A stretch of DNA of 40,768 nucleotides from the IMG/VR virus record IMGVR_UViG_3300037042_003142, positions 1 through 40,768 of that record; one strand, 5' to 3'. The position numbers and the translations under genes were made by a program. The number at the start of each line of letters is the position of its first letter. Within the stretch, counting starts at the first letter, position 1. The notes beneath the pieces are model-generated. The model was not told the origin of the DNA and did not search any database. It worked only from the letters and a program-made list of their open reading frames with translations. The stretch is from a virus. Below, piece by piece: positions 2,007-28,801 of the stretch.

Positions 2007-2855
2007 TTATTTATATTGATAATTGTTAAAAATTACATTTTTTGATACAACCCTACCTTTTATTGTCATTGGATGAATAGTTAATTTATTACTAGCATCC
2101 ACCAATGAATAATATTCAACCCCGTCAATAATAATTGGTTTATTATTTTTTGCCGGAACACCTTTTTTAAATTCACTAATTTTTTGTTTAGTTTCTTCTG
2201 TTTTATTTTTACCCGGATTATTATTTAAAAATTTGTTCCTTTTTATTTCACGAGTTTCTTCACTTTGATATTGACCAAAATCATTACCCATCATTTTTTT
2301 GCTCAAATTTTGTTTATGTTCTTCACTGTGATAGTGTTGTCCCATATGACTTTTACTTATTTTTTTTCCTATAAGTTTTGCTTTATCTTCACCATATCTA
2401 TCAATGTATGATTTACCTTTAAATAATTTTGATAATTTTTCGGATACAATTATAGGTCTTTTAACACCTGTTTTAGATTTTGAAACTCTTTCACCCCATT
2501 CTTTTTTAGATTCTTCAGACATATTTTTCCACCTTTTTTTACCCGAATCCGACATTTTCATTAAAACATCATCGGTGAAAATTATTTGAGAACCTCTAGC
2601 ATTATTATAAATTTTAGAATCTTTAAGGTCAAATTCTTTCAAAATTTTTTGTTCCTCAAATAAACAATCATTTTTAGACCCAATAAATAATATTTCACGT
2701 TCCCAAATCATTTCAGAATTATTAAAATCGTCCCAAAACAATTTACTATGTGATGAGGAAATATAACTATCATCTAAACTTCCTTTATGATAACCAACAT
2801 AAAATTTATGGTTAGTTAAATTTTTCCATTTATATACAAAGGCTTCTTTATTCAT
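2007..2855 (-). CDS. GIY-YIG homing endonuclease with NUMOD3-like repeats
   Basis: 282 residues. The N-terminus has the GIY-YIG pattern: FVYKWKNLTNHKFYVGYHKG, with R in WEREIL and E in the following EEQKIL segment as likely catalytic residues. From about residue 95 come repeats of the type SEEHKQNLSKKMMGN and TEETKQKISEFKKG, typical of NUMOD3 DNA-binding modules. The last 45 residues (IIIDGVEYYSLVDASNKL) resemble a NUMOD1-type helix-turn-helix. It sits precisely between the two halves of the RNA ligase gene in the same orientation. It fills about 850 of the roughly 905 bp separating them, leaving no room for a group I intron core, so it looks like a free-standing insertion rather than an intron ORF. 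Confidence 0.85.
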   Translation of the reverse strand: MNKEAFVYKWKNLTNHKFYVGYHKGSLDDSYISSSHSKLFWDDFNNSEMIWEREILFIGSKNDCLFEEQKILKEFDLKDSKIYNNARGSQIIFTDDVLMKMSDSGKKRWKNMSEESKKEWGERVSKSKTGVKRPIIVSEKLSKLFKGKSYIDRYGEDKAKLIGKKISKSHMGQHYHSEEHKQNLSKKMMGNDFGQYQSEETREIKRNKFLNNNPGKNKTEETKQKISEFKKGVPAKNNKPIIIDGVEYYSLVDASNKLTIHPMTIKGRVVSKNVIFNNYQYK

Positions 2856-23111: not shown

Positions 23112-24134
23112 ATGAATAAGAAATTTGACTTTAAAGATATTACATTAGTTCCTGAAACTATCTCCTCAATTAATAGTCGGTCACAAATCGATATTTTTAC
23201 TGAAGACAATAAATTACCAATTTTTGTGTCCCCAATGGATACGGTAGTTGATTTAGAAAATTACAATTTATTCTTAGACGAAAAATTGGAGGTCTGTTTA
23301 CCAAGATTTTTACATGGGGGTAGAACATTTTCATCAATTTCCTTAGTCGACTTTGAAAAGGTTATTGAGTGGTATGGTGATAATGAGTTAAATGAGGAAA
23401 TTAATATTCTTGTCGATATCGCAAATGGCCATATGGTTAAATTATACGACTTATGTAAAAAGTTCTGTGAAGTTAGAACAACCACAAAACATAGATTGAT
23501 TGTTGGTAATATTGCAAACCCAAAAACCTATGAAAAATTTGCAGAACTTGGTGTTGATTTTATTCGTGTTGGTATCGGTGGTGGAAGTGGTTGTTTAACA
23601 TCGGCAAATACTGGTGTTCATTACCCAATGGCATCATTGATTAACGAATGTTATCAAATCAAAAAAAAGGGTAACTATACGACTAAGATAATTGCTGATG
23701 GTGGTTTCAGAAATTACGATGACATAATTAAAGCGTTGGCACTTGGTGCGGATTATGTAATGTTAGGAGGAGTATTAAACAAAACACTTGAATCCTGTTC
23801 CCCGACTAAATTATTCAAATTAATTACATTGTCAGAGGGACGTTCTATATATCTTTGGAGAACCTTCCCAAAAACTAGAAAGTATTTTTACAAAGAGTTT
23901 AGAGGGATGAGTACTAAAGAAGTACAAAAAAAATGGGGTGGAAAGAACCTAACAACGTCAGAAGGAATTGTCAAATATAATCAGGTAGAGTACACTTTAG
24001 GGTCATGGATTGATAACTTTAAAGACTATTTAAAGTCCGCAATGTCTTACACAAATTCTTTAACCCTTGAGCAGTTTAAAGACTCTGAATTTATTTTTAT
24101 TACTGAGAACGCATTAAAAAGATTTAATAAATAA
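23112..24134 (+). CDS. IMP dehydrogenase/GMP reductase family enzyme, GMP reductase-like
   Basis: 340 residues, the length of GMP reductase and without CBS domains. Features of the TIM barrel: FDFKDITLVPE start, SPMDTV, the catalytic-loop motif VGIGGGSGCLT with the active-site Cys, TGVHYPMASL, IADGGFRNYDD and ADYVMLGGVL. The late segment FRGMSTKEVQKKWGG...SEGIVKY fits the mobile flap. It would convert GMP to IMP with NADPH, or IMP to XMP if it is a dehydrogenase. GMP reductase is favoured by length and by YPMASL. In a phage it would reshape the purine pool. No neighbouring purine-modification genes are visible. Confidence 0.82.
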   Translation: MNKKFDFKDITLVPETISSINSRSQIDIFTEDNKLPIFVSPMDTVVDLENYNLFLDEKLEVCLPRFLHGGRTFSSISLVDFEKVIEWYGDNELNEEINILVDIANGHMVKLYDLCKKFCEVRTTTKHRLIVGNIANPKTYEKFAELGVDFIRVGIGGGSGCLTSANTGVHYPMASLINECYQIKKKGNYTTKIIADGGFRNYDDIIKALALGADYVMLGGVLNKTLESCSPTKLFKLITLSEGRSIYLWRTFPKTRKYFYKEFRGMSTKEVQKKWGGKNLTTSEGIVKYNQVEYTLGSWIDNFKDYLKSAMSYTNSLTLEQFKDSEFIFITENALKRFNK

Positions 24135-24299
24135 TCAACATATTTAATGTTGTGAAACATTACCCTAAAATATTATCTGACATGTATGTTAAAGTCTGTC
24201 TAACTACGATTAAAGTAACCGAAATGCTTAAAATTTTCCTATAATAAGGAATCTATAACTGACATCTAATTAAAACATAATAATTCTAACAATAAATAC

Positions 24300-24752
24300 G
24301 TGAATACTTTAAAAAATATTGCACCCCCCGAAAAGAGTTTGTTTCTTGTTAGGGGGGTGCCTTGACCGGGGTCAGGTAAATCAAAATTTGCAAAAAAATT
24401 AGTTGATGAAGACTTTTTAATTTGTGAGGCGGACAAATATTTTATTGATAAAGAAACGGGTGAATATAAATTTGACGTTTCTAAAATCAAAGACGCTCAT
24501 AAATTCTGTCAAGATAGAGTGGAAACTTATATGAAGGATTCATTAGTAAACGACCAATTTTATCGAGAAATCGTGGTATCTAATACGTTTACACAAGAGT
24601 GGGAAATGGAACGTTATTATGAATTGGCAAAACAATATGGGTATAAAATTTTTTCGATAATCGTAGAAAATAGACATGGTGGAATAAACCAACACGGAGT
24701 TCCTGAAGATAAAATTGAAATAATGAAGACTCGTTTTGAAATCAAATTATAA
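24300..24752 (+). pseudogene. P-loop kinase (AAA_33-like) with in-frame TGA in the Walker A motif; pseudogene or recoded gene
   Basis: From a GTG at 24300 the frame reads NTLKNIAPPEKSLFLVRGVP, then TGA (24363-24365), then PGSGKSKFAKKLVDEDF and on to a normal stop at 24752. Downstream it has ICEADKYF, HKFCQDRVE, VVSNTFTQEWEME and HGVPEDKIEIMKTRFE, the usual order of small P-loop kinases of the polynucleotide-kinase-like group. Removing the six bases TGACCG restores RGVPGSGKS, the family's normal Walker A, while read-through would add two residues and break it. A 9-bp perfect stem (24321-24329 with 24352-24360) ends 2 bases before the TGA. All other motifs are intact, so decay, if real, is recent. 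See findings for a possible 6-nt ribosome hop between CCT and CCG. Confidence 0.7.
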
Positions 24753-26932: not shown

Positions 26933-28801
26933 TTACTTATTATTCACCTCTTCAAATTCAACATCGGAACCATTAAACTCCATATCACCTGTTTGGTCAT
27001 TAACTTGGCCATATAAGTCCTGTGAAATCTTTTGGAATTTTATATTTACCTCATCAACTAATAATTTAGATAATTCTACGTCCTTCTTACTGTGAGCCTC
27101 TTTTAATTTTTCAAGAATTGAAGTTATCTCAGACTTTTGTTCTTCGGATATTTTACCTTCCAAATCATTTAACGATTTTTCAACGTTAAAAATTGTACTG
27201 TCTGCAATATTGATAGCATCAACATCTTCTTTTGCTTTTTTATCAGACTCAGCGTTCATTTCGGCCTCTTGTTTCATTTTTTCAATTTCCTCTTTAGATA
27301 ATCCTGAAGAAGATTCAATTCTAATTGATTGTTGTTTGTTTGTCGCCTTATCCATCGCCGAAACGTTTATAATACCGTTAGCGTCAATATCAAAAGTAAC
27401 TTCAACTTGAGGGACACCTCTCATTGCTGGTGGTAAACCATCTAAATGGAATCTACCGATAGTACGGTTATCTTTAGACATACTTCTTTCTCCCTGAAGT
27501 ACATGGATTTCAACTGACGGTTGATTATCAACTGCCGTTGAAAAACCCTGTGACTTCTTAGTCGGGATGGTTGTATTTGATTCAATTAGTTTTGTGAATA
27601 CTCCACCCATCGTTTCAATACCCAAAGATAATGGTGTTACGTCTAATAACAACACATCTTTTACGTCACCCGCCAATACACCACCTTGGATTGCTGCTCC
27701 AAGAGCAACTACCTCATCAGGGTTAACCCCTTTTGAAGGTTCTTTCCCAAAGAACTTTTTAACCGCGTCTTGGATAGCTGGAATACGTGTTGTACCACCA
27801 ACTAAAATAATCTCATCAATGTCTGTTGTTTTTAATCTTGCATTTTTTAATGCCGATTTACAAGGTGCGATAGTTCTCTCAACAAGACTATCAACCAACT
27901 TCTCAAATTTAGATTTACTTAATGTTCTAACTAAGTGTTTTGGAATACCGTCTACAGGCATGATGTATGGTAAATTAATCTCAGTTGAGTTTGTTGACGA
28001 TAACTCAATTTTCGCTTTCTCAGCCGACTCACGTAATCTTTGTAATGCCATTGGGTCTTTAGTTAAATCAAGATTATTTTCATCTTTAAACTCACTAACT
28101 AACCAATCGATAATTACTTGGTCAAAGTCGTCCCCACCTAAATGAGTATCCCCATCAGTAGATAATACTTCAAACACTCCATCACCAAGTTCTAATACAG
28201 ATACGTCATGTGTACCACCACCACAGTCAAATACAACGATTTTCATTTCTTTCGACATCTTATCAAGTCCATACGCTAACGCCGCGGCAGTCGGTTCGTT
28301 TATAATTCTCAACACCTTTAATCCCGCAATTTCACCGGCTTCTTTTGTTGCCTGACGTTGGGAGTCGTTAAAATACGCAGGTACGGTAATAACTGCCTCA
28401 GTTACTTCTGTTCCTAAATAATCCTCAGCGGTTTGTTTCATCTTTTGAAGAATCATTGCCGAAATTTCTTGTGGCGAATACATTCTATCTTCGATAGATA
28501 CTCTTGGAGTGTTACCTTCACCTTTAACTAATTTATACGGAACTCTACCAACCTCACCTTTACTTTCGTCAAATGTTAACCCCATAAATCGTTTGATTGA
28601 GTAGACCGTTTTATCAGGGTTTGTTACCGACTGTCTTTTTGCAGGGTCCCCAATTTTTCTTTCACCACCATTAATAAATCCGACAATTGAAGGTGTGGTT
28701 CTTTTTCCTTCACTGTTTGTAATAACAACTGGTTCGTTACCTTCCATTACGGCAACACACGAATTTGTAGTTCCTAAATCCACGCCTATTATTTTTCCCA
28801 T
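26933..28801 (-). CDS. dnaK: Hsp70 chaperone DnaK
   Basis: 622 residues, full length. The N-terminal ATPase has [14 protein letters not shown] (phosphate 1), [34 protein letters not shown], a phosphate-2 loop [11 protein letters not shown], and [13 protein letters not shown]. The linker [16 protein letters not shown] and the substrate-binding domain follow; the tail [12 protein letters not shown] is bacterial in type. The sequence looks most like Bacteroidota DnaK, suggesting capture from a host. The usual GGGTFDVS has H in place of F here. DnaK uses ATP to bind and release unfolded chains with DnaJ and GrpE; neither is encoded in full here. A TATATTTT element lies about 21 nt upstream of the start, but no strict promoter. 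Confidence 0.97.

Follow-up and report, generated by a model that had tools for sequence, protein, structure and literature searches.

How can a phage enzyme be made from a gene whose catalytic loop is split by a stop codon? This question is raised by a small P-loop kinase gene at positions 24300-24752 of the window, i.e. the whole 40,768-nt stretch of viral DNA analysed here (IMG/VR record IMGVR_UViG_3300037042_003142). The kinase frame translates as VNTLKNIAPPEKSLFLVRGVP*PGSGKSKFAKK...IKL*, with the Walker A motif divided by an in-frame TGA (RGVP-TGA-CCG-GSGKS). As the original prediction had pointed out, this TGA is real (24363-24365), and without positions 24363-24368 the product reads RGVPGSGKS, matching uninterrupted relatives. 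On the plus strand, the gene consists of ORF 1 (24300-24365), which carries a regenerated N-terminus, (V/M)NTLKNIAPPEKSLFLVRGVP, and closes with the TGA, and ORF 2 (24369-24752), which resumes at GGG and encodes GSGKS...IKL, the remainder of a polynucleotide-kinase-like P-loop kinase. Between them lie a proline codon, CCT (24360-24362), as the putative take-off site, and a presumably untranslated gap, TGACCG (24363-24368), made up of the stop and the candidate landing triplet CCG (24366-24368). ORF 1 starts with GTG in the window and with ATG in most element-bearing relatives, and it retains the beta-1 strand together with the first half of the P-loop (EKxLYLVRGVP, compare MEKILYIVRGIP in native relatives).

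The assignment as a kinase is based on several profile and fold searches. Pfam AAA_33 matched the part downstream of the gap, and PHROGs returned ATPase and polynucleotide kinase families. For an alignment-based AF2 model of an uninterrupted relative (mean pLDDT 83), the best Foldseek match was the T4 polynucleotide kinase domain (1ly1, E 1e-5, TM-score 0.69 by query length), whereas a one-sequence phmmer search against the PDB gave no kinase match. Directly upstream, the phage encodes an IMPDH/GMP-reductase-like protein (23112-24134, plus strand), and a full-length Hsp70 (DnaK) is encoded further downstream on the minus strand (26933-28801).

An IMG/VR protein search that used only the post-gap part of the kinase as query yielded 80 loci, most of which have the plain start MxKxLYIVRGxPGSGKS, while several carry a hairpin and a stop. 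The TAnnTTTG promoter-like boxes in front of the native kinase genes suggest a Bacteroidota host. Combining this search with a DNA pattern scan and with an independent search via the neighbouring endonuclease, in which the element itself was not used as query, we found 27 distinct kinase loci that share the arrangement of a hairpin, a stop preceded by a proline codon, and a short gap in front of the Walker A GGN. They correspond to about 41 IMG/VR contigs besides the window (contigs counted by hand). Identical copies are present across separately assembled metagenomes (L004/L005/L006 and L057/L058/L059/L062). The element is therefore neither a chance occurrence nor an assembly error. The plain alternative considered at the outset, a fresh insertion or a faulty assembly, thus loses its second half but keeps a modified first one: there was an insertion, in the past, and a homing-endonuclease cassette left the element behind as its scar (see below), so that past insertion and bypassing would both be true.

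Outside this set, the pattern was not recovered. Scanning of GTDB genome contigs gave 48 matches, none of them followed by a Walker A motif, and a single 201-nt query found no DNA match to the element in named phages. We also compared 1.8 Mb of retrieved phage loci with one another in search of further ORFs interrupted by a short stop-containing insert; 22 kinase contexts were recovered as positive control, but no other convincing recurrent case. One frame break turned up immediately downstream of a native kinase, in a metallophosphoesterase-like gene (L318:1343-1982) that lies in two frames when compared with the 90% identical L323; as a single case it is likely an error or a recent frameshift.

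The 27 loci allowed us to separate the constant from the variable parts of the gap. The stop follows directly after the take-off codon in every locus and can be TGA, TAA or TAG; CCT serves as the putative take-off codon in 26 loci, with L172 (CCA) as the only exception. Ten distinct gap sequences of 6, 7 or 9 nt were found, namely TGACCG (8 loci), TAACTA (5), TGACCA (4), TGAGCTA (3), TGACTA (2) and, once each, TAGCTA, TGAGTTA, TAACCA, TAATCA and TGAAGACCG, and the end of the gap is always flush with GGN. Hence, the expectation that TGACCG would persist in relatives holds for the presence of a gap, but not for its letters or a fixed length of 6 nt. What is conserved is the triplet in front of GGN, which is YYR in 27/27 loci (CTA 11, CCG 9, CCA 5, the remainder TTA or TCA). 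Pyrimidines in the third position are absent from the landing triplets (0/27) in contrast to the native proline codons (17/46), with a Fisher p of 1e-4 if relatedness is ignored and 0.02 when the count is restricted to the 10 distinct gaps.

Every landing triplet can pair with a tRNA-Pro of anticodon UGG if G.U pairs are allowed, which are needed for CTA, TTA and TCA. In the tRNA arrays of two element-bearing phage contigs, tRNA-Pro(UGG) is the only tRNA-Pro found. As an element-free phage has it as well, this speaks for availability of the tRNA rather than for a dedicated role. The proposal that one tRNA could read both CCT and CCG is therefore compatible with the tRNA-Pro(UGG), G.U pairing included; a proline codon on the landing side is not a general feature, as the relatives often have CTA, and only the L172 group has the same codon at both sites. 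Large arrays of roughly 20-29 tRNAs covering most amino acids were observed on the contigs of L003, L083 and the element-free L009.

These gap data also bear on the idea that the stop is simply read through by a near-cognate or suppressor tRNA and that the P-loop tolerates two extra residues (RGVPxPGSGKS). The frame permits this in members with 6-nt or 9-nt gaps, the sequence of any one 6-nt member on its own is compatible with it, and the L083 contig, whose element has a TAA stop, contains a weak tRNA with anticodon UUA, which would read TAA. However, ORF 2 is in a different frame from ORF 1 in the four 7-nt members (L003, L004, L089 and L092), so read-through alone cannot join their halves. 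Moreover, all three stop codons occur among the members, two or three residues would be added inside a loop for which native relatives keep GxPGSGK, and the constant YYR before GGN would be left unexplained. Taken together, we regard read-through as very unlikely. The UUA tRNA-like gene mentioned above (L325:3958-4035, equivalent to 61957-62033 of the L083 contig) scored 36.9 bits, and TAA ends ordinary genes on that contig. Reassignment of a stop in an alternative code was excluded, since TAA, TGA and TAG all occur in the element and also end ordinary genes; in the window they terminate 30, 5 and 3 ordinary long ORFs, respectively.

Reading frame is equally informative for a second group of translational explanations, i.e. 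termination followed by reinitiation, or a prfB-like single-nucleotide frameshift at the CCU-stop, assisted by the Shine-Dalgarno-like AGGGGG located 3 nt upstream. In its layout, the window sequence AGGGGG-GTG-CCT-TGA-C resembles the RF2 shift site of E. coli (PMC5009743), and many members share the purine-rich run 3 nt before the shift codon and the following UGA-C. A +1 shift would even restore the frame in the 7-nt members, but it leads to the wrong frame in the 6-nt and 9-nt members, which form the majority (23/27). The net shift of the kinase element is +6, +7 or +9, the identity of its stop varies, it lacks any release-factor logic, and the Shine-Dalgarno-like run is not conserved (AGAGGGC in L031, AGAGGGG in L057). 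Reinitiation would cost the beta-1 strand and half of the P-loop, and there is no start codon at the gap. Both variants are thus extremely improbable.

The second constant part of the element is an RNA hairpin immediately upstream of the stop. The predicted perfect 9-bp stem is indeed present in the window and ends 2 nt before the stop: its 5' arm, GCACCCCCC, spans 24321-24329 and its 3' arm, GGGGGGTGC, spans 24352-24360 (plus strand), the last base being the first base of the take-off codon CCT. Within this outer stem, we identified an inner 5-bp stem not mentioned before (AAGAG, 24333-24337, and TTCTT, 24343-24347, plus strand). With the stop in the A site, the inner stem ends 13 nt behind the P-site codon, while the outer stem reaches into the P site. 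The window hairpin has a folding z-score of -3.9, and none of 200 shuffled sequences was equally stable. Over 22 distinct rows, 95.5% of the cells are compatible with pairing, compared to 40-61% for controls with slid partners. Both helices covary: we counted 25 double-change cells, compared with 7.2 +/- 2.6 in shuffles (0/500 reaching this value), a contrast from which shared ancestry can only partly be removed. One pair of the inner stem changes from A-U to G-C in 7/22 rows, and whole stems replace each other among the members (GCACCCCCC/GGGGGGTGC, GUACUCCCC/GGGGAGUAC and GAACCCCUC/GAGGGGUUC). No comparable fold was detected in the two native kinase genes tested. The element is minimal, with a length of roughly 50 nt.

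The original prediction had also highlighted a short inverted repeat spanning the stop, TGACC-GG-GGTCA. This repeat, TGACCGGGGTCA, does exist in the window (24363-24374, plus strand), where it may form a small A-site hairpin like that of T4 gene 60, and it recurs in the TGA members L172, L196 and L198, but it is not conserved. As an essential A-site stem-loop it was dropped, because folded members with TAA or TAG do without it.

A hairpin next to a short gap might in principle serve as a processing signal, with the 6-9 nt being lost from the RNA or the DNA by splicing, editing or a polymerase jump across the hairpin base; this would result in the correct protein too. We give this explanation next to no credence: no Rfam family matched at the element, and the ribosome is implicated by a gap that varies in letters and length and whose sole constant is a tRNA-pairable triplet. 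In addition, no phage mechanism is known to remove 6-9 nt.

The origin of the element became apparent from its genomic neighbourhood. Of the 22 loci whose discovery did not depend on the nuclease, 16 have a homing endonuclease gene (HEG) of roughly 292 residues directly upstream of the element on the opposite strand, and two (L003 and L048) have relics of it. The protein is divergent and combines NUMOD3 repeats with a TnsA-like PD-(D/E)XK domain; searches of named phages returned NUMOD3 fragments only. Counting distinct kinase contexts, the HEG or a relic is nearby in 10/11 contexts with the element vs 0/102 without it. No HEG or relic was found in the window, L083, L087 and L117. Two genes upstream of the L087 kinase, which bears the element without the usual HEG, there is a gene with two NUMOD3 motifs and a GIY-YIG-like start, MEKEAFVYEWKNLTNGKSYIGYHKG (L087:5536-6342, minus strand). 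The window itself has a second homing-endonuclease-like gene at a position unrelated to the kinase (2007-2855, minus strand; PHROG 314, E 6e-21).

Two comparisons placed the insertion inside the kinase gene. In L085, a truncated native kinase start is found to the left of the HEG (GATATGGAAAAAATATTATAT, compared to GATATGGAAAAAGTATTATATATTGTTAGAGG in the native L248), with the leftover native start ATGGAAAAAATATTATAT, and the right cassette junction lies in Walker A. Since the native start survives on the far side of the HEG, the cassette sits within the kinase gene and supplies both a new start and the hairpin. Furthermore, L031 and L017, only one of which carries the element, share 99.4% identity over 5.3 kb starting inside Walker A but have nothing in common immediately upstream, as expected if recombination took place at a cut within the P-loop codons. 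The window represents a derivative form, with the nuclease deleted and the stop-hop element retained: positions 24001-24285 align with L004:231-515 and positions 24279-24365 with L004:1459-1545, so that the 943 nt in between (L004:516-1458, with the HEG at 548-1420) are missing and the HEG-loss junction maps to 24279-24285.

Distant relatives of this HEG are located beside other Walker A genes (L201, L206, L210, L220 and L222), where fragments ending in ...GGPGSGLK* or ...RGIPGSGLK* are left on one side. At several of these HEGs, an intact GPGxGKS gene begins at the HEG end, which is an alternative way to regenerate the split gene.

The link to a selfish gene could also mean that the kinase has simply been inactivated by the cassette and that homing keeps only the endonuclease, without any recoding; homing can spread a damaging insertion. 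Selection on the kinase argues against such a pseudogene. The two ORFs are split by presumably untranslated nucleotides in all 27 loci and both halves are conserved: the N-terminal half retains the native EKxLYLVRGVP, and residues such as SNTFTQEWE and ENRH show little or no variation across the full set of members. For the post-gap part, the dN/dS of close element-bearing pairs is 0.11 (L003/L004) and 0.15 (L031/L048), and it stays below 0.3 in all pairs with computable dS. A second lesion in the kinase was not observed in any of the 27 loci. Besides, the hairpin shows covariation despite its location outside the HEG, and the element is retained without an intact HEG in the window, L048, L083, L087 and L117. 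An inactive kinase is hence a very improbable explanation. Each of 11 element-bearing contigs encodes only one copy of the kinase, although these contigs may be fragments. Thus, the earlier statement that the rest of the window gene is intact was correct, with the downstream frame being under purifying selection in relatives, and the proposed look at related phages revealed a hairpin kept by compensatory changes and a stop kept in three forms.

This arrangement strongly suggests that the enzyme is produced by ribosomes hopping across the stop plus another 3 to 6 bases. Judged from the comparative sequence evidence, we are confident that the element represents programmed ribosomal stop-hopping in an active phage kinase gene, with a 5' hairpin as the driving force, and that it has been kept as the scar left by a homing cassette. 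The wider interpretation as a natural mobile stop-hop, in which a HEG invades a catalytic loop without intron or intein and the hairpin makes the ribosomes skip the scar, appears likely.

For the mechanism of stop-hopping, we infer the following steps. A cassette consisting of the divergent NUMOD3/PD-(D/E)XK endonuclease gene and a replacement 5' end of the kinase would have invaded the P-loop codons of a polynucleotide-kinase-like gene, placing the stop and a few extra bases exactly at the presumed endonuclease target; we propose that the donor copy is thereby spared from cutting. During translation, the ribosome would reach the proline codon and then the stop, with the hairpin right behind it and the lower stem kept open in the mRNA channel. 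Zipping of the hairpin may pull the mRNA back while the peptidyl-tRNA-Pro releases CCU, and the same tRNA, presumably tRNA-Pro(UGG), would re-pair with the YYR triplet before GGN, 6, 7 or 9 nt downstream. Decoding would restart at GGN and result in RGVPGSGKS. At take-off the nascent chain comprises only 21-24 residues, which makes a KKYK-type peptide signal impossible, and the efficiency of the hop could therefore be low. The kinase is probably non-essential, in which case modest expression might suffice; a tuned signal would then be less compelling.

T4 gene 60 is the one well-studied case of programmed bypassing in bacteria or phages (PMC5009743). There, a 5' stem-loop is already paired in its upper part at the mRNA exit, and the mRNA is pulled as pairing proceeds (PMC5009743, PMC11194080). 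The kinase element shares with it a stop right after the take-off codon (PMC5009743, PMC3014915, PMC11194080), an upstream 5' stem-loop able to zip as the mRNA exits the ribosome, and a functional protein that requires skipping of the gap. As in T4 gene 60/mobA, the insertion is found in a conserved phage gene and linked to a free-standing homing endonuclease. The gap, in contrast, measures 6-9 nt instead of 50 nt, and the codons, a CCU take-off with any YYR landing, follow a laxer rule than the matched GGA of T4. T4 gene 60 has a KKYK nascent-peptide signal 25-30 residues before the P site, for which the chain is too short here, and the kinase element lacks a conserved take-off or 3' stem-loop. 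The host gene is a PNK-like kinase unrelated to T4 gene 60, the endonuclease is of the PD-(D/E)XK type with NUMOD3 repeats instead of HNH, and many natural variants exist as compared to one for T4 gene 60. Consequently, the kinase element is not a member of the T4 gene 60 element; of the suggested analogy, the layout and the HEG link stood, while the sequences proved unrelated.

In E. coli, synthetic constructs have demonstrated stop hops, in which the peptidyl-tRNA hops over the stop to a nearby pairable codon and 9 nt can be decoded as one amino acid (PMC5009743). The kinase element differs from these in being natural, in its conserved genes, in a dedicated covarying hairpin and in the occurrence of 7-nt gaps as well as 9-nt gaps. 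According to a review from 2016, no natural occurrences of in-frame stop hopping were known (PMC5009743), and we found no later natural example in a limited search of the open literature to 2026 that covered few subscription papers or preprints. The byp elements of Magnusiomyces capitatus mitochondria are distinct as well: the kinase element is confined to one gene and one site in bacteriophages, it uses a hairpin and not an unused A-site codon, and it is HEG associated.

If our interpretation is true, the kinase genes would constitute the first natural stop-hop family, in which 10 different gap sequences of three lengths are represented. Annotation pipelines will label such genes as broken or split in two. 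The natural variants are small enough for a reporter-based dissection of hairpin strength, gap length (6/7/9), landing codon and stop identity, and the family offers a comparative test of a 5' hairpin driving forward movement of the ribosome. As the second link between bypassing and homing endonucleases, the finding suggests that HEG scars are repeatedly tolerated by means of bypassing, and it would give selfish elements a third way of occupying an active site harmlessly.
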